IMG/VR virus record: IMGVR_UViG_3300033155_000965
Location: 1-53,101 of that record
Length of the DNA: 53,101 nt
Reading direction: 5' to 3' (one strand)
Source: a virus
In this document: piece by piece, positions 2,913-43,131 of the stretch
How positions within the stretch are numbered: position 1 is the first letter of the stretch
Layout: each line of letters opens with the position of its first letter
Translations under genes and position numbers: made by a program
Notes under the pieces: model-generated
The model's input: only the letters and a program-made list of their open reading frames with translations
Told to the model about the DNA's origin: nothing
Database searches by the model: none

Positions 2913-4030
2913 CAGTATATCACCTTATCATGGAGCCGGTCCTTCAGTTTAACACTGACACGGTTCACGAACGCTTTATTCTCTGAGTTCCGCAGCGTAT
3001 GAAGGTTGGTCAAGGCTGTGAACGTCGGATGGTAGGTAAACTGGGCCGTATATGGAATTGCAGGCTTCGTAACGTTCCATTTTAGTTCATTTCGACCAAA
3101 AACCTCTACATCGTTGCCCGGACCGGTCGTATAATCGGTTCCGTCCTTCGTGATCACCCTCAAAACCCTACTCAGATCATAATAGGCTGTCACCACGTCG
3201 TTTCCTGCCACTAACGAGGGTTGAATTACCACCGAACCGATCTGCTCCTGCGAGAGGGCTGTGAATAGGTCCTCTGGCGCTGGTTGAGCCCAGTAAGGAA
3301 CCACAAGTATTGCATCCGCATCTTCAAGGACATACGGCTGCTCGTACCTGATTCTCCCGGAGACGCCGGTAAGCATGAAGTCAAACGGCTTCACATACGT
3401 ATAATCCACTTCTAAAACGTCACCAACTTCCCATGTACCCATAGCAGTGAGGGTGATATATTCCTTTGTAGCACTCGCAACCGTATAGGTCTCTGTCTTG
3501 GTCGTATTATATACTCGGGTTACCTCATCAACAGATCCCTCATATGATTTGCCCTTCTCTATGAACCGGGCGGCCACTACTCTCAACACGTTGGTAGCGT
3601 AGACATCAGAGTTCTCGTCGGTCACGGCTACCAGTGGTGAATAGGTATAGGTTGTAGTCAGAAGCCGGTGCAATGCTGGATAAGGTGGGTCGAGTTGAAT
3701 ATAGGACCCATCAGCCGGTTGCGATACAGCCAGCACAAGCGGCACATCCTTATGAAAGACTTGCGGCGTTCCTATTACAGGTATGTACTTTGGATATACT
3801 CGACCGGTGCTGCTATGCCTTGCCACCTCATCAAGAATCTGAAAGCTGTCCGGGTTCCTATAAATCGAACCACGTCCCGCACATACGGTACAATTCGGAT
3901 CGGGTCTCATCGTGTCAGGGTTCAGACAGGAACATTTGACAGCCTGCGTCCACCGGAGCCACTGTCCGTGTCGGGCGAGAGCTTCTTCATATCTGCGAAC
4001 GGTTTGAAATGTCCTGAAGGCGTCAGCCAT
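2912..4030 (-). CDS. Putative neck/structural protein with N-terminal Cys4 motif
   Basis: The 372-residue protein follows a good ribosome site (GGGGAGAGGATATG). Around residues 33-52 there is a compact CxC...CxxC motif (CSCLNPDTMRPDPNCTVCAG) of the kind that binds one metal ion. The upstream helix contains RRYEEALARHGQWLRWTQAV. The rest is mostly beta, with repeated stretches such as YTYSPLVAVTDENSD and YTVASATKEYITLT, like an Ig or beta-sandwich structural protein. It lies between connector-like and head-completion genes. I infer a neck or tail-tube-proximal structural role in which a metal-binding knot stabilises the N-terminus. Confidence 0.6.
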   Translation of the reverse strand: MADAFRTFQTVRRYEEALARHGQWLRWTQAVKCSCLNPDTMRPDPNCTVCAGRGSIYRNPDSFQILDEVARHSSTGRVYPKYIPVIGTPQVFHKDVPLVLAVSQPADGSYIQLDPPYPALHRLLTTTYTYSPLVAVTDENSDVYATNVLRVVAARFIEKGKSYEGSVDEVTRVYNTTKTETYTVASATKEYITLTAMGTWEVGDVLEVDYTYVKPFDFMLTGVSGRIRYEQPYVLEDADAILVVPYWAQPAPEDLFTALSQEQIGSVVIQPSLVAGNDVVTAYYDLSRVLRVITKDGTDYTTGPGNDVEVFGRNELKWNVTKPAIPYTAQFTYHPTFTALTNLHTLRNSENKAFVNRVSVKLKDRLHDKVIY

Positions 4031-4040
4031 ATCCTCTCCC

Positions 4041-5171
4041 CTACGTTATGATGCTGATCGGTATCGGTGCAAACTTGTACCGGTTCTTTTCCAACCATGA
4101 AGTAATTTCATCTGAATACTGTTTGATCCTCGCTCCAAAATAGGCGCTCGTTGCACTTTGAGTTGAGCTAAAGCTCTCACTGAGCCCATCCAGACTGACC
4201 GACTGGCTTGAGAATCCTGCCAGCAGCCCATCACCGATGACCGAGAGACACTTAATTGTAGCATATTTAGCTATCACACTTCTAAGCCCGTCCGGTACGA
4301 GGTCGGCATTCTTGTATCCGGTCTCATAATCGAACTCGAAAGCGTCAGGGTACTTGGCTCCATTATTTCTTGTCCATAAGGGACCATACACAGAGTACGG
4401 ACCATAACTGAAACCGCCCTGCGGGAACATATGAACCTGTCCGAGTTGCTTCTCTACCCTGAGCCAGTCATTCGCGATCATGTCCATAATCTCACCGCCG
4501 ACCGGAGAGTTCCACTTCGCTCGGGTGACCTTGATGATCGGAAAATGCCTGAACTGAATGAAGCCATACTTGGTCCACAGTTGTGGATCGAACTCATAAG
4601 GCTCATCCTCATTGGTATAATCCACACCTTCTCGCCAGAGCCTCGACTGTACCAGTGAATCCGCTGGTCGTGTGACCCATGACTTTCGTCGGATGTCCAT
4701 AGTCAAAAGGGATTCGAACTCGCTCACGGCTTCCCGTGCAATCTGCCGGAACTGCTCATCCTCCCATTCACTCTGCGCAATGTCAGAACCGATACTATCG
4801 ATTCCCCACATCATGGTATATCGTAAATCGTCAGGGGTGTAGATGTCTCCCCACTCTCCCGGAGGTGGTTTGTAATTTCCAAAGGTGTACCCGATCTTAT
4901 CGACCTCTGTCCCACCCTGAATCGCTGCGGACTGATCACTCTCCGCCCCCGCCGGTTCTTTAAAATAGGAGGTCTTATACCACTTCGTACTGTCGCCTGC
5001 CGCATCATCATAATAGTATTTTGTCTGTTCAGGAATAAGCGGAAGCCGTGTATTTACATCAGTAATCTCAACATACGCACCACCCTCAGTATCAGATCGA
5101 TATATCTTGATCCGGTCATAGTATTCCAAAACATGAGAGATGTTATTTACGTCTACTAATAGTCTTACCAT
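4041..5171 (-). CDS. Putative head-tail connector protein with N-terminal FN3/Ig-like domain
   Basis: The protein has 376 residues. Residues 1-60 look like one fibronectin-III or Ig-like repeat (YYDRIKIYRSDTEGGAYVEI, then LPLIPEQTKYYYDD). A linker leads to a helical connector-like body that starts near WEDEQFRQIAREAVSEFESL. Its later part contains LVPDGLRSVIAKYATIKCLS followed by a Ser-rich loop (SLDGLSESFSSTQSATSAYF). This arrangement is often seen in phage head-tail connector proteins. The start overlaps the preceding stop (TGATG). Placement upstream of the neck proteins agrees with a connector role, which stays an inference. Confidence 0.6.
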   Translation of the reverse strand: MVRLLVDVNNISHVLEYYDRIKIYRSDTEGGAYVEITDVNTRLPLIPEQTKYYYDDAAGDSTKWYKTSYFKEPAGAESDQSAAIQGGTEVDKIGYTFGNYKPPPGEWGDIYTPDDLRYTMMWGIDSIGSDIAQSEWEDEQFRQIAREAVSEFESLLTMDIRRKSWVTRPADSLVQSRLWREGVDYTNEDEPYEFDPQLWTKYGFIQFRHFPIIKVTRAKWNSPVGGEIMDMIANDWLRVEKQLGQVHMFPQGGFSYGPYSVYGPLWTRNNGAKYPDAFEFDYETGYKNADLVPDGLRSVIAKYATIKCLSVIGDGLLAGFSSQSVSLDGLSESFSSTQSATSAYFGARIKQYSDEITSWLEKNRYKFAPIPISIIT

Positions 5172-10918: not shown

Positions 10919-11242
10919 TTACTCCTTAAACTCTTTGGGCCACTCGTCTTCAGGTATGCCCCACTGCTTCGCCATCTCTACGAAGGCTTGCTTTTCGTCA
11001 TGGAACGCCTTTATGAGCCTGCCATTACGCATCCAGATAAGATTCCCAGACACGGTATTTACTGTTTTCACAGCGCCGCACAAGCGACATCTGTGACCAT
11101 CTATGAATACACCACAGGAGGGGCATATGGCATTAGCCCGTCCCTCCTCAGTAGATAGATCGGTACTTACTTCAACTTCGACCTCTCCTGAACCGTCCAT
11201 GGCTCGTAAAGTTTCCTTCTTTGTAGTCTTCGTCTTAGCCAT
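10919..11242 (-). CDS. Zinc-ribbon protein
   Basis: The 107-residue protein has a basic, Thr/Lys-rich start (MAKTKTTKKETLRAMDGSGE), an acidic stretch (EVEVEVSTDLSTEEG) and a compact zinc ribbon near residues 40-57 (CPSCGVFIDGHRCRLCGA). The C-terminus is helical and ends in IPEDEWPKEFKE. It sits between the genes for the two largest fibre-like proteins, only a few bases from either. The metal site is clear from the Cys spacing. The function is not, and an assembly chaperone or a small virion component are both possible. Confidence 0.68.
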   Translation of the reverse strand: MAKTKTTKKETLRAMDGSGEVEVEVSTDLSTEEGRANAICPSCGVFIDGHRCRLCGAVKTVNTVSGNLIWMRNGRLIKAFHDEKQAFVEMAKQWGIPEDEWPKEFKE

Positions 11243-24693: not shown

Positions 24694-25031
24694 CAGTACT
24701 CACTCCTATCAAACTCTCCCGGAATTACGTTCAACTTCGCTGCGGAGATGCTTTCCTCTGCCATGATGCGGGCCTTCTGTAACGAGTCCCGCTCCCCCAA
24801 CTTGTTTACATAGCGATCTTTCAGATCGTGGTACACTTCATCGTACGGTCCTTCCTTTTTCTGATCGAGCCGTTTTCGTAAAGCATCCATATCAGAGTTC
24901 AGTCGGTCGATCCCTTTATTGGCCGCTTCGATAACCTGTTCCTGTTCGCGAACAATGATAGCAGCTTTCGTATCCAGTTTTACCTTGACCGCATCGAGTT
25001 GGTCTGCGCTCTTCTCCGCCTGATTACGCAC
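24693..25031 (-). CDS. Coiled-coil hypothetical protein
   Basis: The 112-residue protein is helical almost throughout, with heptad patterns (SADQLDAVKVKLDTKAAIIV; GIDRLNSDMDALRKRLDQKK). A short C-terminal extension contains AAKLNVIPGEFDRSEY. It overlaps the stop of the large polyvalent gene (ATG 25031 against 25024) and its own stop overlaps the next start, so it is coupled to both. It may be a partner of the coiled-coil membrane protein downstream. I do not recognise the family. Confidence 0.6.
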   Translation of the reverse strand: MRNQAEKSADQLDAVKVKLDTKAAIIVREQEQVIEAANKGIDRLNSDMDALRKRLDQKKEGPYDEVYHDLKDRYVNKLGERDSLQKARIMAEESISAAKLNVIPGEFDRSEY

Positions 25032-28000
25032 TTCGGGCCTCCTCTTCGTATTTGTTCAGCATACCGATAAATCCCTTATCATCCAATGCCGTTACCGACC
25101 GAGGATTGCCGATGATATTCATTTCTTTCCGCTTCGTGGCCATCAAGTCTTCAGACCGCATATCCATAGGGTTCACACCGGACAGAACATAGGTCGAAGT
25201 ATCCCTATCCTGACCCTTCCTGAATATCCGGGCGTTCCGCTGATCAAATGCGGCTGCGCTGTCCGGTATATCCAAGTGAAAAGTGACCGATCCCCCAGCC
25301 TGTAAGTTATGGCCGGATTCGAGAGTCTTAGTCCCTACAATGAACCTGAGCGGATTGCCCGGATCATTAAATGCGGCCTTAGTCTTTGCCATCTCTCCGG
25401 GACCGGTCTCACCGTGAATCATCGCAACGGACCCTACACCAAACTCTTTCTCAAGTCTCTTCTGAGCCGTTCGCATAGCCTTCAGTACGGGTTTACCCGG
25501 CTGGGATACGTGAACAACTGCCTTCTCTCCGGGATGGTTATTCTTCATCGTGTCGATAATCGTATCGACCTTAGCATTACTCTCGGTATAGCCGTCAGAT
25601 AGAATCGAATAGTTTCTGGAATCTCTACGAGCCGAAGCTCCGGGAAGTTTCTGTTCCCGCTCATCCCTATATTGCCTCTCACTTGCCGCATACGCTTTCC
25701 GCTGTGGAGCAGACATTGGAATACGGAGTGTATTGACCTTGTTCTCAACCGGTAGTTGATTCTTCTGCGTGTAAACCCAGTCTCCGGTCTCTTTCCTGAA
25801 CGCATCGTTGGCAGCGTCCTGAAATATGCCGGTACCTTGGTTGAGTCCCTTATATCGCTTCTCAAAATCAGCCATTGAACCCATACCATGTTCAGGATCA
25901 ATGAAGTTGATCTTCCTGTAGAGTTCCTTCTTTGACGTTTTGATGTTCGTACCTGACATAGCCATCTTCAGAGGAACGTCTGCGAGTTGATCTAAAGCCT
26001 TATATCTCCCAGCCGCACCAGTACCGGCAGTCATTTCATGAATCTCATCTAAAACAACCATATCGTATCCGGCATCTTTCAGGATCGAAGCGTCTTCCCT
26101 GAGTGCATCCTGTGAAACGATATGAATACCGTCCTGTTCAAGGTGTCGGCGGTGACGTTCAGTCTTCGAAGTGTTGGAGGTCGACTGCCTGACGAGCTTC
26201 TGCATATCCTTATCAAGGAAAGTCTCGCGTTGTTTGTGGAAGTCGCCACGAGTACCTGACGGGGTTACTACCAGAATCTTCTTAGCTCCCTTATTAGCCA
26301 TAGCATCCATGATCCCCGCATAGGCAATTCCTGTCTTTCCAATACCCGCTTCAAAGTCTAACAGAACCCTACCCTTCTCATTGAAGAAACGGAGTCCGGC
26401 TTCCTGTGCTGCATCGAACTTGATACTGTCCTTAATACCCGGTGGTTTATATCCGGTATTTGATTCATGAGCCTTGATAGCTGCAAGATTATCCTTCTCT
26501 GCCGACTTGTCAGCAGCACCCTGAAAGAAGTTGTTCAGAGACTCTTTCGGAATCTCCATGACCAGCCGCTTAGCGCGCCCTTTCTTAACGGTTCGTATCG
26601 AATAGGTACCTTTCTTCAAACCGGCATTCTTAGCCCTGTCACGAGCCCGTGCAAGGTCCTTACCCATATCTACCTGTACAACATCAGCCGGTGGATCTTC
26701 CAGCGCGTTGATCATATGCGCGGCTGCTCTCAGAGAACCTACAGCCGTACCCAGTGCGCGCTGTGCTGCGGTGATCTGCTTCAGAGCATGACCATTAGCT
26801 GAGGCCATGGACAGGATTGCTTCGGCATCGTCTTTGTCCCGCGCCAGTCCCCTAATATCATCAGCGTTGGCCAGTCGTTTCTTGGTTTCCTTCAATGCAC
26901 GGTCAACGACTTTCTCACGTTCTGTGGCTACATACTCTTCAAGGGCCTTACGCACGACTTCGCCCTTACCATCCAATTGGATCTTTGCGGTGACCGCTCG
27001 GGCCACAGCTTCAATCCCCAGTTCCTTTACAGTGTCAGTCGTGAAAGTAGCACCGGAACCGTACACATCTCCGATCAATCCGTTCAATGCGGAGATTGCA
27101 CCTTGGTCAACATGCCCGTTGATCGCCTGACTCTGAGCATTGAGGATGTCATACATCTGAATATTCTTTGCTGTCTCGGCCTGATCCTTGACCTGTCTCT
27201 GGATCTCATCCATTTCACTGGTCGTGGCTGCGGCAAACACCGCTCCAACCTTCAGGTCGGAAGGAATGTCAGCACTCTCCGCACCGATGGCCTTAATCGC
27301 TTTCCTGAACTGCTTTCTGGCTGCCAGTACTTCAAGAGCCTTGTCCTTATCGAGTAAGGTCTTCAGTTCCGGTGCTGCGTTAGGGTCCTCGGGCATATAG
27401 TCTTTCATCAGGGTGTTGAGCGCTTCCCGCTCCACATTCTTGACTTGCTTCTGGACCGCTTTCTTGAGTTCCTTCTCAGACTGCTTATCAACTTCGTTTT
27501 CAATAGCCTTCTCATCCATGGTCTTAAACGCCTTTCGCGCTTCAACCATCTTCCGGGCCTTGTCCTCAAGTTCTTTCATCTGCTTAGCACTAATATTATC
27601 TCTGATCTCATCAGGGGTAACACCCAGAATATCTGTAACCACCTCAGTATAGGCGGCTCGGGCTGTCTTTCGTGCTGCGTGCTGAACTTTACGGGTTGCT
27701 GCGGCCTCGCTGATCTCTTCCTTGGTCAGCGCCTTCGTTTCTTCTTTTTTCTTAGCCTCGATCCGTTTCCGCTTCACAGTATAGTCTTCACGGCTCATGA
27801 TATTGTCAATCTTCAGGTGATTCAGTTTCCCACCGGCCCCGCCGACCACGACATAGCCGCCGTCACTGGTTCCCTGCAACAGGACCCTTGCACCCCGGAT
27901 CGTAACCCAGCGCATTCCACGAGCTTTCACTTCATCGGCTGAGTAATATTTCTTACCCTCGCCGTTTGCTTTCATAAGATCACCCAGCCAGAAGAACTTG

Positions 28001-29997
28001 ATCAGCTTATGATTGCGATGGAGAAACCATTGTCCGCTATCGCTCTTGAGCAAGTCCCCTTCTCCGAATGATTTGTTCACTCCGAACCTGTCTACCAGAT
28101 TCGTAATTCTCTGTTCCATAATTCGCCTCAGTTTCGGGTCTTCAATACCCGCAAGGATTACGCCTTTCTTAGACAGTACGTTTGTCAGTTGTTCACGGAT
28201 ATCATTATCACTCACGAGGCCGAACACCGAGGAAGCCGAACGGGAGGGATCTCGAAGACTCTCGACTTCGGTAACATCCCCACCAAATGAATCGCCTTTC
28301 GGAGCGCCCTGTGCCCTGTAGCGTAATGATCCACCATTGTCGATTCTCCATGCTCTCGCACCGTCCCATATAACATTATCATTATCCATACCCAGAACAT
28401 CCCAGTTACTCACCAACGCGTCGGCCAGAAACCCATCCCGAAGCTGCTTCATAGCCTCAGACTGTTCATCTCCATAGAGGTCGGAAAGTGGTACGCCCTC
28501 AATATAGTCGGCAACCTGTACGAGCTTCCCCTCACTGTCGTGTGAAAGTTGAACATCAGGGACCGCCACACCGAGCGTTTTGTAGATTCGGTTCGCCATG
28601 TATTCATCTTTGAGATGACCTTCACCGGTTGAACGTTTCAGGACCTTCTCTTCACCATTGGCCAGCCTGACATGGGCTGCGCCTCCGGTAGTCCCTCCAA
28701 GATTCTTGAGGGTGGCATAATGTCCCATACCTCTGGGCCGCTTCCCACCATTATCAGGATATGTATAATGCCATCGACCGTTCTTGAAGTACTTATTGAT
28801 ATACTTTGACTTCTGTAGCTTCATCGATTCTTTAATCTCATCAGGTCCGAACAGGTGCATAGCGTATTTCAAGGAAAGCTCTTCGAATGCGGTTGTCATG
28901 CCTTCTGACTTACTCTTCATAACCTTCGCCGGGTTCAATTTCATATAGTTGACATTCGGCCTTCCATGCGCTTTATAGTCCCAAGCCTTCGGCGCGTACT
29001 GGTCATCCCATGCCACGGTCTCAGTCACCTCGAATCCATATTTCGAATATATCTTAGGTAACACGTCACCCAGACAATCCAATGACTTCGCTCCATTCTT
29101 TATAGCCGTCTTCATGATTGAAGCGCCTTCATGGGCACCCGGTTCAGAGAAAACAGATATAAGGTCTCCGTCACCGGTAACCGCATAGCCGCTCTTACCT
29201 GTCTCGGAGATATACGCCTTGGCACGCTTGCCCTCATATTCTTTCGCAGTGTAGGAAGTAACAAACGCATCGAACTCTTTTGGAGTCTTTGCGTCTCGAA
29301 CAGGTACAAACTCAGCTAAGGGAACATTGGAATAAGTTGTGACCAGTTTGATAGCGTCCTTCTTATCCACGAAGGTCGCCAGTTCTTTTTTAGCTGGCTT
29401 ACGCCCTTTCTTGTCACCGGGGTATTCATAGTACCAGCGTCCATCCTTGCCCCGCCATCGTTTGGTATACTTTGCCTTCTCCAAGTGACCGATACTGTCA
29501 TTATCCGCAGTCAGAATGTATGTTTTAGACTTCCGTAATTTCTTAGGCGGCTTCAGAGTCAACCCTTTCCGGTCCTTCAACATCTGTTTGAAGGTTGCCA
29601 TATCTACCTGATCACAGGACCCGTAATAATCTGATCGGTCATACTGTCTCTGGTATGCTGCCTTGGCTTCTACCTGACTGTTGAACCCGAGCATACACTT
29701 GTCTTCATCATAGTTACCGGTATATGGATCATTTTGGTGTACGATATATACCTTATCGGAGAACTTGCTGGGTCCCATATATACATCCACATGATCACCG
29801 TCGACACCGAGAGTAAGACGCACATAGCCATAAGCAATATGCATAAAAGTACGCCACATATTCCCATGATCGTCCTCCCCCTGCCTGTAAGTTCCTCGTT
29901 CATTCTCAATTGAGATGGGTAATCCCTGAAATGTGCATTTGCCTTGGAGCTTGCGACTGCGCCAGTCTACTGCATTAGTAATAATGCCTCGTTTCAT
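25024..29997 (-). CDS. Polyvalent protein: pyrophosphatase-like, GNAT-like, kinase-like and SNF2 helicase domains
   Basis: The protein has 1657 residues. Residues 1-150 match the phage pyrophosphatase-like domain (VDWRSRKLQGKCTFQGLPIS, then IAYGYVRLTLGVDGDHVDVY). Residues 205-355 look acetyltransferase-like (AHEGASIMKTAIKNGAKSL). Residues 395-640 look kinase/HipA-like (HLKDEYMANRIYKTLGVAVP, then SNWDVLGMDNDNVIWDGARA). Two WYYEYP/WHYTYP linkers separate these domains. A coiled-coil stretch spans about 740-1150. An SNF2-type helicase fills 1178-1657, with FEAGIGKTGIA (Walker A about 1208), LDEIHE (about 1307) and FDQRNARIFRKGQ (motif VI about 1576-1586). Such polyvalent proteins are known from phages and are thought to be ejected with DNA to counter host defences. 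Confidence 0.78.
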   Translation of the reverse strand: MKRGIITNAVDWRSRKLQGKCTFQGLPISIENERGTYRQGEDDHGNMWRTFMHIAYGYVRLTLGVDGDHVDVYMGPSKFSDKVYIVHQNDPYTGNYDEDKCMLGFNSQVEAKAAYQRQYDRSDYYGSCDQVDMATFKQMLKDRKGLTLKPPKKLRKSKTYILTADNDSIGHLEKAKYTKRWRGKDGRWYYEYPGDKKGRKPAKKELATFVDKKDAIKLVTTYSNVPLAEFVPVRDAKTPKEFDAFVTSYTAKEYEGKRAKAYISETGKSGYAVTGDGDLISVFSEPGAHEGASIMKTAIKNGAKSLDCLGDVLPKIYSKYGFEVTETVAWDDQYAPKAWDYKAHGRPNVNYMKLNPAKVMKSKSEGMTTAFEELSLKYAMHLFGPDEIKESMKLQKSKYINKYFKNGRWHYTYPDNGGKRPRGMGHYATLKNLGGTTGGAAHVRLANGEEKVLKRSTGEGHLKDEYMANRIYKTLGVAVPDVQLSHDSEGKLVQVADYIEGVPLSDLYGDEQSEAMKQLRDGFLADALVSNWDVLGMDNDNVIWDGARAWRIDNGGSLRYRAQGAPKGDSFGGDVTEVESLRDPSRSASSVFGLVSDNDIREQLTNVLSKKGVILAGIEDPKLRRIMEQRITNLVDRFGVNKSFGEGDLLKSDSGQWFLHRNHKLIKFFWLGDLMKANGEGKKYYSADEVKARGMRWVTIRGARVLLQGTSDGGYVVVGGAGGKLNHLKIDNIMSREDYTVKRKRIEAKKKEETKALTKEEISEAAATRKVQHAARKTARAAYTEVVTDILGVTPDEIRDNISAKQMKELEDKARKMVEARKAFKTMDEKAIENEVDKQSEKELKKAVQKQVKNVEREALNTLMKDYMPEDPNAAPELKTLLDKDKALEVLAARKQFRKAIKAIGAESADIPSDLKVGAVFAAATTSEMDEIQRQVKDQAETAKNIQMYDILNAQSQAINGHVDQGAISALNGLIGDVYGSGATFTTDTVKELGIEAVARAVTAKIQLDGKGEVVRKALEEYVATEREKVVDRALKETKKRLANADDIRGLARDKDDAEAILSMASANGHALKQITAAQRALGTAVGSLRAAAHMINALEDPPADVVQVDMGKDLARARDRAKNAGLKKGTYSIRTVKKGRAKRLVMEIPKESLNNFFQGAADKSAEKDNLAAIKAHESNTGYKPPGIKDSIKFDAAQEAGLRFFNEKGRVLLDFEAGIGKTGIAYAGIMDAMANKGAKKILVVTPSGTRGDFHKQRETFLDKDMQKLVRQSTSNTSKTERHRRHLEQDGIHIVSQDALREDASILKDAGYDMVVLDEIHEMTAGTGAAGRYKALDQLADVPLKMAMSGTNIKTSKKELYRKINFIDPEHGMGSMADFEKRYKGLNQGTGIFQDAANDAFRKETGDWVYTQKNQLPVENKVNTLRIPMSAPQRKAYAASERQYRDEREQKLPGASARRDSRNYSILSDGYTESNAKVDTIIDTMKNNHPGEKAVVHVSQPGKPVLKAMRTAQKRLEKEFGVGSVAMIHGETGPGEMAKTKAAFNDPGNPLRFIVGTKTLESGHNLQAGGSVTFHLDIPDSAAAFDQRNARIFRKGQDRDTSTYVLSGVNPMDMRSEDLMATKRKEMNIIGNPRSVTALDDKGFIGMLNKYEEEARSA

Positions 29998-41304: not shown

Positions 41305-41704
41305 CTTCAATACTCCTAAGCATATTATTCATTTCAATCCCGTACTCATCATCCGCAAGCAGATCACACAAGCTCGGTCCCCAGTTCAGATAGTCCGTAA
41401 CCAGTACGCGCTCATGAAGCAGGGCACGGTTATGCTCGTTCATAAAAAGCGCCTGCGATTTGAATCGTTTGGTAGTCCCGATTTTGGCTTTCACGTCGTT
41501 GCTGGAAACACTCTCCATACACCTGATAACCCACTCAATGAACCGGCTGGAATTAGCTTCCTTGGTCTGTAATATTGATATGGGTATAGGGTCCGGTCTC
41601 TGTGTCTTTGGTATCCGGTTCATTTTGATATCGTCCCAGTCGAACTTAAACACTTTGATAGTGGTAGAGTCCGCCAGAAATGTAAAGTTTATCTCTTTGC
41701 TCAT
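41288..41704 (-). CDS. Hypothetical protein
   Basis: The 138-residue protein starts at ATG 41704, overlapping the upstream stop (ATGA). A strand-rich N-terminus (SKEINFTFLADSTTIKVFKF) is followed by helices (EANSSRFIEWVIRCMESVSS) and a C-terminal helical region (LHERVLVTDYLNWGPSLCDL). There are no Cys pairs. It is in the small-gene block between the candidate RNA and the zinc-finger mini-proteins. I recognise no family or enzyme motif. Confidence 0.55.
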   Translation of the reverse strand: MSKEINFTFLADSTTIKVFKFDWDDIKMNRIPKTQRPDPIPISILQTKEANSSRFIEWVIRCMESVSSNDVKAKIGTTKRFKSQALFMNEHNRALLHERVLVTDYLNWGPSLCDLLADDEYGIEMNNMLRSIEDGETG

Positions 41705-42024
41705 CTTCCGATCCTTTTCAACCCTCTCTGAAACGGGTTGCCTTCCATGGGCATAGTTGGTGACTCAGCATGAACCACTTCCATTCTCTCCGGGTTCACA
41801 CCGTCCTCGATCAGCAGCAGTCCACGAAACTTGTTCACCGTGATTTCTTTACTCATCTTCTGGCCCATCACTTTCTGACACGCCTCGCTCAGGTAACCCC
41901 GCGCCTTCGTACCTATGATAATCCCAGTAGACGAGTGGCCTATTGAAGCTATCTCGTCAATCTTCGTGTCCAAGTACGCGATCAGATCCATACCATCGCT
42001 TATGATTCTTCCTTCCAATAGCAT
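41701..42024 (-). CDS. Hypothetical protein downstream of the candidate RNA
   Basis: The 107-residue protein has SD AGGAGGGCAGAG before ATG 42024. It begins with LLEGRIISDGMDLIAYLDTK and has a central helix (SIGHSSTGIIIGTKARGYLS). The second half contains MSKEITVNKFRGLLLIEDG, similar in its first residues to the start of the next gene's product (MSKEINFTF). It is the first gene after the structured RNA element and could be controlled by it. No family was recognised. Confidence 0.55.
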   Translation of the reverse strand: MLLEGRIISDGMDLIAYLDTKIDEIASIGHSSTGIIIGTKARGYLSEACQKVMGQKMSKEITVNKFRGLLLIEDGVNPERMEVVHAESPTMPMEGNPFQRGLKRIGR

Positions 42025-42092
42025 CTCTGCCCTCCTGTCAATTGTCCTTCACTAATAAATAATCGGGGTAATCCCGAAAACCTTACGGGCAT

Positions 42093-42249
42093 AAAAAAAG
42101 GCCAAAGTCGGGAGGAACACACACCCGTTACCGGACGGTGTTTCCCACAAAGCCAAGCCGCCAGTCGACTATCCGCTACCTTCTGTCCGAGCCGAAACAC
42201 CGTGACATCAATAGGGGCTCTGTGGTCTGGCACTCCCAAACCTTGGCCT
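42093..42249 (-). ncRNA. Candidate structured RNA: 16-bp closing stem, H-type pseudoknot, U-tract
   Basis: On the minus strand the 5' arm (42249-42233) pairs with the 3' arm (42114-42099) in about 16 bp with one bulge; seven T follow. Inside, 42225-42216 (CCACAGAGCC) pairs with 42154-42145, and 42203-42194 (ACGGTGTTTC) pairs with 42144-42135. Both are 10 bp, one with a single G-U, and they interlock as a pseudoknot or as two competing folds. A CCG-GTAA-CGG hairpin follows. No good promoter is seen, so the element may be the processed 3' end of the M23-peptidase message and at the same time its terminator. Confidence 0.7.
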
Positions 42250-42266
42250 AAATATTACTTTTTAAT

Positions 42267-42959
42267 CTACTTGATACGCTCACCCTCCAAAAACGGGTAC
42301 GGATCTATAGGCCACCACCTGTCACGTGCAAAGACTTCCAACTGAAAATGTAAATGTGGTGCATCAGAATATCCAGTCGATCCCATAAGCCCTAACACTA
42401 TTTCAGTGTCTACAGCATTGCCCTCTTGAGCCTCATAATACGCTTTCCCTAAATGCCATGCACGACTCCGTACACGGTCTCCATGTTCGATGATAAAGTT
42501 CAATCCCTCCACACGTCCCCACTCTAACCAACTGGACACGCCCGGAGCATACGCTCTGATTCTCAAATCCGAACCCACAGCTACCAAGTCCATTCCTAAG
42601 TGACTTGTTCTCGGGTCCCCGCCGTAACCTTGATCTGATCCATACCTTGATGTAACTGACCACTTACTGAAAAATGGATTCCCTTTCGGGATAAGCTCAA
42701 TAAGCTCAGTCATCTCCACGTATGATAAACCAATACTCGCTGAATCGATAGCAGCATAGTAGGCTACCTTTCTAAGTAATTCTTTTTCTCTTTCCTGAGA
42801 CTCCAATTGTGCGGCCTCCAACACATCCACATCACTGTTTAGCGAGCTAACAGTCTCTAAGATTCCCTCATTGATTGCTATGTGCCTCTTATACTCCGAA
42901 TACATAACAAACGATAGAAGGACAAACACCACACTCATTATGATTATGGCTGACTTCAT
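42267..42959 (-). CDS. Membrane-anchored M23 peptidase (putative lysin)
   Basis: The protein has about 230 residues from ATG 42959 (GAGGAGGG upstream). The N-terminus is a membrane anchor (SAIIIMSVVFVLLSFVMY), followed by a coiled-coil (SSLNSDVDVLEAAQLESQER). The C-terminal LytM/M23 domain has TSHLGMDLVAVGSDLRIRAY (metal-binding His and Asp) and GLMGSTGYSDAPHLHFQLEV with the HxH motif. It would cleave peptidoglycan peptide cross-links. Its N-terminal anchor places the domain in the periplasm or cell wall. An anti-SD-like CCTCC stretch in the leader suggests translational control. Confidence 0.8.
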   Translation of the reverse strand: MKSAIIIMSVVFVLLSFVMYSEYKRHIAINEGILETVSSLNSDVDVLEAAQLESQEREKELLRKVAYYAAIDSASIGLSYVEMTELIELIPKGNPFFSKWSVTSRYGSDQGYGGDPRTSHLGMDLVAVGSDLRIRAYAPGVSSWLEWGRVEGLNFIIEHGDRVRSRAWHLGKAYYEAQEGNAVDTEIVLGLMGSTGYSDAPHLHFQLEVFARDRWWPIDPYPFLEGERIK

Positions 42960-43096
42960 TAAACCCTCCTCAAAGTAAAAGGGGAAGAACAACCCGTTTT
43001 AAGGAGGTTTGCCTTTGATCAACTGCAACGCAAATTGATTCGTGGGTCGCTCAACCCCTACATACCTTAATAATCGTATTGTAACCCGAAACCTTA
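42960..43096 (-). promoter_or_regulatory. 5' leader of the M23 gene with possible SD sequestration
   Basis: This 137-base stretch has no gene. It contains AAACCTCCTT, which can pair with the SD region GAGGAGGGTTT just before ATG 42959 (about ten pairs with one bulge). A partial promoter-like TACAAT occurs near the left end of the terminator, without a good -35 box. Confidence 0.45.
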
Positions 43097-43131
43097 CAAA
43101 CAACGAAGCCCCTTCACGCTGAAGGGGCTTC
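43097..43131 (-). terminator. Rho-independent terminator after the HTH gene
   Basis: GAAGCCCCTTC pairs with GAAGGGGCTTC (11 bp, 5-nt loop) four bases after the stop at 43135, followed by GTTGTTTG on the minus strand. The stem is strong and the tract moderate. It separates the early small genes from the lysin. Confidence 0.72.

Follow-up and report, generated by a model that had tools for sequence, protein, structure and literature searches.

A conserved structured RNA with a terminator-like end and a second hairpin RNA in a group of uncultivated phages

RNA1, RNA2 and their neighboring genes

The window analyzed here is the whole stretch of 53,101 nucleotides of an IMG/VR record of an uncultivated bacterial virus. 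On its minus strand, a region of approximately 150 nt between an M23 peptidase gene and a gene for a 107-aa protein (42249-42093) is best read as an independent structured non-coding RNA, which we call RNA1; there is one copy per record. A second conserved hairpin RNA (RNA2) lies upstream, and the following features have been assigned at the locus.

43069-43097, minus: promoter-like repeat GTAAGG-N15-CGATTATT, upstream of RNA2
42975-43065, minus: RNA2, about 0.8 kb upstream of RNA1, with loop CAAACCUCC at 43011-43003
42267-42959, minus: M23 peptidase (lysin) gene, between RNA2 and RNA1 (Pfam PF01551, E 8.9e-11)
42093-42249, minus: RNA1, structured non-coding RNA including the 3' U-run, supported by homologues and by changes on both sides in 35 of 47 pairs
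42058-42086, minus: promoter-like repeat GTAAGG-N15-CGATTATT, just past the U-run
41701-42024, minus: 107-aa gene, directly after RNA1 in all four phages (48-85% identity)

The start of the M23 peptidase gene was re-read from the sequence as the ATG at 42959, with the ribosome-binding site GAGGAGGG. The gene in this place has been exchanged among the four phages in which RNA1 was found (the window, L002, L050, and L107): L002 has none, L050 has a 115-aa gene at 4636-4983, and L107 has a gene at 4068-4763 that reads, by sequence inspection, like a lytic transglycosylase. The sequence-only reading, which was made of the window before the present analysis, had suggested as one possibility a switch that also terminates the lysin message; given the missing gene in L002 and the different genes in L050 and L107, RNA1 is not specifically connected with the lysin. 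The 107-aa protein had no match in Pfam or PHROG, and its predicted fold (pLDDT 81) had no PDB match at E ≤ 0.001; the structure search gave only weak matches, to uncharacterized phage proteins.

Copies of the repeat GTAAGG-N15-CGATTATT are located in intergenic gaps, at 43097, 42086, and 38081 (minus strand) in the window and at 10975 and 11264 in L049, and the repeat stands before RNA2 and after RNA1 in the window and L002. The repeat of L107 differs (AAGTCCATNATTATAAG, at 4008 and 4970) and occupies the same two relative places. In L050, the next start codon follows the U-run after only about 16 nt, leaving no room for a promoter.

Fold and conservation of RNA1

RNA1 is composed of the helices P1, P2, P2a, P3, and P4 in two nested three-way junctions, with a GNRA loop on P4 and a U-run after P1. 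The parts in the window are listed from the 5' end.

42239-42249, minus: outer part of P1, 5' strand (partner 42099-42109)
42233-42237, minus: inner part of P1, 5' strand GGGAG (partner 42110-42114)
42226-42232, minus: J1/2, UGCCAGA, unpaired in the nested fold and conserved as UGYCRGA
42216-42225, minus: P2, 5' strand (helix A of the sequence-only reading)
42176-42214, minus: P2a hairpin, stem 42214-42210 with 42180-42176, apex variable
42156-42170, minus: P3 hairpin, loop ACUGG
42145-42154, minus: P2, 3' strand
42116-42142, minus: P4 hairpin with a GUAA tetraloop at 42131-42128
42099-42114, minus: P1, 3' strand
42093-42099, minus: U-run, putative intrinsic termination site, whose first T pairs in P1

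The closing arms that had been noticed from the letters are present: P1 of the window is a stem of 16 bp with a one-base bulge (42249-42239/42109-42099 and 42237-42233/42114-42110) followed by seven T on the minus strand. DNA-level BLAST against a named phage collection found no relatives of the window, and IMG/VR phages provided three RNA1 homologues, one close and two distant. L002 was reached by scanning viral contigs with the neighboring 107-aa protein (85% identity), L050 was found by a model of the window and L002 and reached via a DUF2201 gene, and L107 was found with a three-sequence protein alignment of the 107-aa neighbor.

L002, 4789-4935: RNA1 homologue
L050, 4995-5134: RNA1 homologue
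L107, 4775-4945: RNA1 homologue

A model (R2) built from the window and L002 only, with the final structure, detected L050 (E 3e-6) and L107 (E 6e-4), each match falling exactly in the gap that precedes the 107-aa homologue; the next-best matches over 71 kb reached only E 0.6. The four sequences fold independently into one topology (z -2.98, -3.52, -3.36, and -4.40). P1 has 12-18 bp, and counterparts of its inner part are GGTGG/CCACC in L050 and CCGGA/TCCGG in L107. J1/2 is 7 nt long with the core UGYCRGA in the window, L002, and L050, and P2 has 10-11 positions followed by one C and then by P2a, whose stem is conserved and whose apex varies in length. A joiner of about 5 nt leads from P2a to P3, the loop of which contains CUGG. 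P4 has 11-13 bp with double changes in 10 of 11 pairs, its tip is GUAA in three phages and GAAA in L107, and the last joiner after it has 1-3 nt. L107 might also form an alternative hairpin at 4799-4830, where GAGUAUGG, the 5' strand of P2, and CCAUACUC, a part of the P2a apex, are perfect complements.

When the four sequences were aligned by the R2 model, 97.8% of pairing cells were standard and, as listed above, 35 of 47 pairs were changed on both sides; neither value was reached in any of 500 shuffles, and slid partners paired at no more than about 50%. Since this alignment is biased towards the structure, the helices were also aligned by hand, which gave double changes in 37 of the 42 pairs of P1-P4. 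Self-pairing within each phage averaged 0.97-1.00, whereas the 5' strand of one phage paired with the 3' strand of another at 0.46-0.60. In the four sequences compared, two of which are close, the structure has been conserved while the sequence has turned over, and the fold has been maintained by compensatory change. Because of this covariation, the closing stem P1 and the first 10-bp helix (P2) are genuine, and RNA1 is almost certainly real, a structured RNA that has been conserved and ends like a terminator. A conserved protein-coding frame, which the sequence-only reading had named as evidence to the contrary, was ruled out because the window and L002 differ by indels of 1, 2, and 4 bases and because turnover is confined to compensated pairs.

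That reading had also described two interlocking 10-bp helices whose 3' arms touch, and both exist in the sequence: helix A (42225-42216 with 42154-42145), which is identical to P2, and helix B (42203-42194 with 42144-42135), a perfect pairing of ACGGUGUUUC with GAAACACCGU. The comparison with homologues that it had proposed yielded compensatory changes in P1 and P2, so that helix A is retained, but did not do so for helix B: 57.9% of its cells are paired across homologues, a level attained by 117 of 500 shuffles, and its 3' arm instead forms the 5' side of P4, a covarying hairpin. The pair probability of helix B in the ensemble of the window RNA is about 1e-4, an indicative value only, from a nested model without pseudoknots. 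The view that chance was an unlikely source of the pairings does not apply to the crossing pair by itself, since crossing helix pairs of at least 10 bp, G-U allowed, occurred in 185 of 2000 dinucleotide shuffles (9%). The nested fold of the whole RNA1 in the window (z -2.98) is unusual, being equaled by 1 of 200 shuffles. The decisive support for RNA1 is the comparative evidence.

An alternative crossing contact connects GCCRG in J1/2 with CUGGC in the P3 loop (in the window, GCCAG at 42231-42227 with 42164-42160). Its pairing is 100% in all four phages, against 50% or less for slid controls, and in all four nested folds the two segments are unpaired or nearly so. The changes in this contact are one-sided (A-U to G-U at one pair, C-G to U-G at another), with no double changes. 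Judging from these sequences, the J1/2-L3 pseudoknot may be a better candidate for a crossing contact than helix B and could replace it.

The proposed terminator-like end is supported in all four phages, P1 being followed by U7 in the window, U8 in L050, U7 in L107, and the weaker CUUUUAU in L002. As in an intrinsic (rho-independent) terminator, a G+C-containing stem, here of 12-18 bp, stands directly before the U-run. An intrinsic terminator has a short loop (3-8 nt), whereas RNA1 has two junctions, with about 118-120 nt between the stem strands.

No match was obtained at gathering thresholds when the whole window was searched against Rfam 15, which includes known ribozymes, riboswitches, and phage pRNA. 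Around RNA1, the search up to E 10 gave only a chance match on the other strand (E 3.3); no Rfam ribozyme with a known self-cleaving core matched RNA1, and no tRNA or tmRNA was found. A pattern based on the window and L002 had 46 matches, among which only the L002 contig resembled RNA1. A three-element pattern detected 23 stretches in approximately 85,000 bacterial and archaeal genomes, and none was RNA1-like when judged by eye, not by model score. DUF2201 relatives at up to 47% identity contained no RNA1, and neither part of Touem01 nor part of phiFa had a match.

Few structured non-coding RNAs are known from virulent phages, and most of them have no known function (PMC4933390). The nearest precedents are the late sRNA1 and sRNA2 of Pseudomonas phage PAK_P3 and the band C and D RNAs of T4 cited in the same report (PMC4933390); like RNA1 and RNA2, they are small non-coding RNAs from gaps between genes of virulent phages, with two of them located near each other and no function assigned. 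In contrast to the setting of RNA1, sRNA2 of PAK_P3 is flanked by tRNA genes and has sRNA1 nearby, and while the PAK_P3 sRNAs were seen in RNA-seq (PMC4933390), RNA1 is known here from sequence alone. The T4 RNAs are likened to it by description, not by sequence, and the four-sequence RNA1 model (R3) had no match in the PAK_P3 genome. Because there is neither an Rfam family nor a PAK_P3 match to the model, RNA1 has been filed as a new class. The earlier claim of a compact non-coding RNA that matches no known class is borne out by the Rfam search and by the covariance in four phages, and RNA1 appears to be a previously uncatalogued class among phage-encoded structured RNAs. Its significance is that such a class, clearly covarying, has been recovered from four genomes.

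RNA2 and shared ribosome-binding sites

The closing stem of RNA2 is long, and its sequence is poorly conserved between distant phages; the loop CAAACCUCC is invariant. The fold z-scores in the four phages are -3.9, -5.5, -5.4, and -5.0.

L002, 4690-4780: RNA2 homologue
L050, 4540-4625: RNA2 homologue
L107, 4028-4105: RNA2 homologue

The reverse complement of the loop is GGAGGUUUG, which is found at ribosome-binding sites, so that the loop is their exact antisense. Among GGAGG-type start sites, GGAGGUUUG is the commonest sequence in three phage contigs and shares first place in the window. There are 3, 3, 3, and 4 such sites per phage, all upstream of RNA2 in gene order, and the shared ribosome-binding-site sequence GGAGGTTTG stands at the following 13 gene starts.

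Window, 52668, 51752, and 50228, minus: gene starts with GGAGGTTTG
L049, 2913, 4124, and 6481: gene starts with GGAGGTTTG
L050, 905, 1821, and 3526: gene starts with GGAGGTTTG
L107, 384, 998, 1269, and 2094: gene starts with GGAGGTTTG

GGAGGTTTG was absent from all 312 comparable start sites in DUF2201 relatives without RNA2. GGAGGUUUG was present at 13 of 76 GGAGG-type start sites of the four phages and at 1 of 579 control sites, which were taken from unrelated viral and bacterial DNA and from DUF2201 relatives without RNA2 (Fisher p 3e-12, the sites being not fully independent because the four phages are related). Putative targets include an AAA ATPase gene (window and L002) and the DUF2201 gene (L002 and L050). 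These results suggest that RNA2 is a multi-target RNA for translational shut-off, antisense to the ribosome-binding sites of 13 genes. They provide a testable prediction, namely that one phage RNA silences a set of the phage's own genes via a shared ribosome-binding-site sequence. The antisense property, a seed against several start sites, is clear in RNA2 and lacking in RNA1, no 8-mer of which complements more than one start site in any of the phages. With no start-site complementarity, RNA1 was rejected as an antisense RNA; it was also rejected as a sponge of RNA2, native RNA1:RNA2 duplexes being no better than cross-phage ones.

Possible roles of RNA1

We consider, with a probability of about 0.5, that RNA1 is a stand-alone RNA acting in trans, recognized by its shape, with P1 doubling as an intrinsic terminator. 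One transcript would begin at the promoter-like repeat that precedes RNA2 and continue through RNA2 to RNA1, covering one variable, usually lysis-related gene where present. RNA1 would form the 3' end of this RNA2-containing transcript, where P1 and the U-run would end transcription and protect the end, and the released RNA1 would be recognized by its shape and act in trans, its probable partner being either a protein or a large host machine. Recognition by shape is proposed because almost nothing is conserved beyond the helices, the GNRA loop, and the proposed J1/2-L3 contact, and because there is no antisense seed. The trans role itself is argued from the absence of other explanations and is given even odds. 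L002 has RNA1 although no gene separates it from RNA2, so that RNA1 is more than a terminator for the lysin, and since repeats stand behind RNA1 in the window, L002, and L107, the next gene need not be read through RNA1 there. These two observations, together with a fold that is elaborate in comparison with the simple hairpin used elsewhere, favor a stand-alone RNA with P1 as terminator; the number of sequences (four, two of them close) and the weak U-run in L002 count against it.

Its end and its gene order also bring to mind a leader acting in cis. As an attenuator, riboswitch-like or responsive to a protein, RNA1 would control the 107-aa gene together with the operon that follows, and the folded core would decide whether P1 closes and terminates before that gene. 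The ZTP/pfl riboswitch has a pseudoknot between J1/2 and a loop. Terminator-coupled riboswitches of this kind share with RNA1 a compact junction fold and a terminator-like end, and have a junction-to-loop contact such as the one proposed for RNA1, and P1 with its U-run is compatible with an attenuator. The same 107-aa gene is directly downstream in all four phages, but this adjacency is weak evidence for a leader because gene order is generally conserved here. Unlike those riboswitches, RNA1 has no Rfam match at E 10 and few conserved unpaired nucleotides, which does not resemble a ligand pocket; there is no conserved alternative antiterminator helix, and a promoter-like repeat separates RNA1 from the gene in three phages. 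A cis leader is less likely than the stand-alone RNA, although in L050, where the U-run lies about 16 nt from the start codon with no promoter room, RNA1 could be the leader of the 107-aa gene.

That RNA1 serves only as terminator and 3'-end protector of the RNA2-lysis transcript, its inner domains keeping P1 closed and resisting nucleases, would accord with the U-run after P1 in all four phages and with the end of a transcription unit ahead of a promoter-like element in three. We regard this as unlikely, since a plain hairpin terminator of 12 bp serves in the same phage at 43131-43105, and an elaborate fold of 150 nt is therefore not needed for termination; neither the J1/2-L3 contact nor the GNRA loop would need conserving. 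A two-state switch, in which helix B and P4 are mutually exclusive and toggle RNA1, is very improbable, though individual phages may have one. The perfect 10 bp of helix B in the window (-14.0 kcal/mol) are comparable to P4 (-13.0 kcal/mol), and in L050 the P2a apex and the 5' strand of P4 likewise share a 10-bp complement (chance 0.017). However, the latter is in another register and uses nucleotides other than those of helix B, this complementarity is not unusual in L002 (chance 0.49) or L107 (chance 0.24), and helix B lacks covariation.

Taking the stand-alone RNA1 and RNA2 together, we tentatively propose that they form a two-RNA control cassette in this group of uncultivated phages, with a gene related to lysis often inserted between them. 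RNA2 would mask the GGAGGUUUG start sites of upstream genes and shut off their translation, and RNA1, a new shape-recognized class from the same transcript, might for example stabilize, deliver, or time RNA2, or capture a host factor.

Elsewhere in the window, at 25024-29997 on the minus strand, we observed a 1657-aa fusion, the N-terminus of which matches phage virion/DarB-like families and the C-terminus a DNA helicase family.
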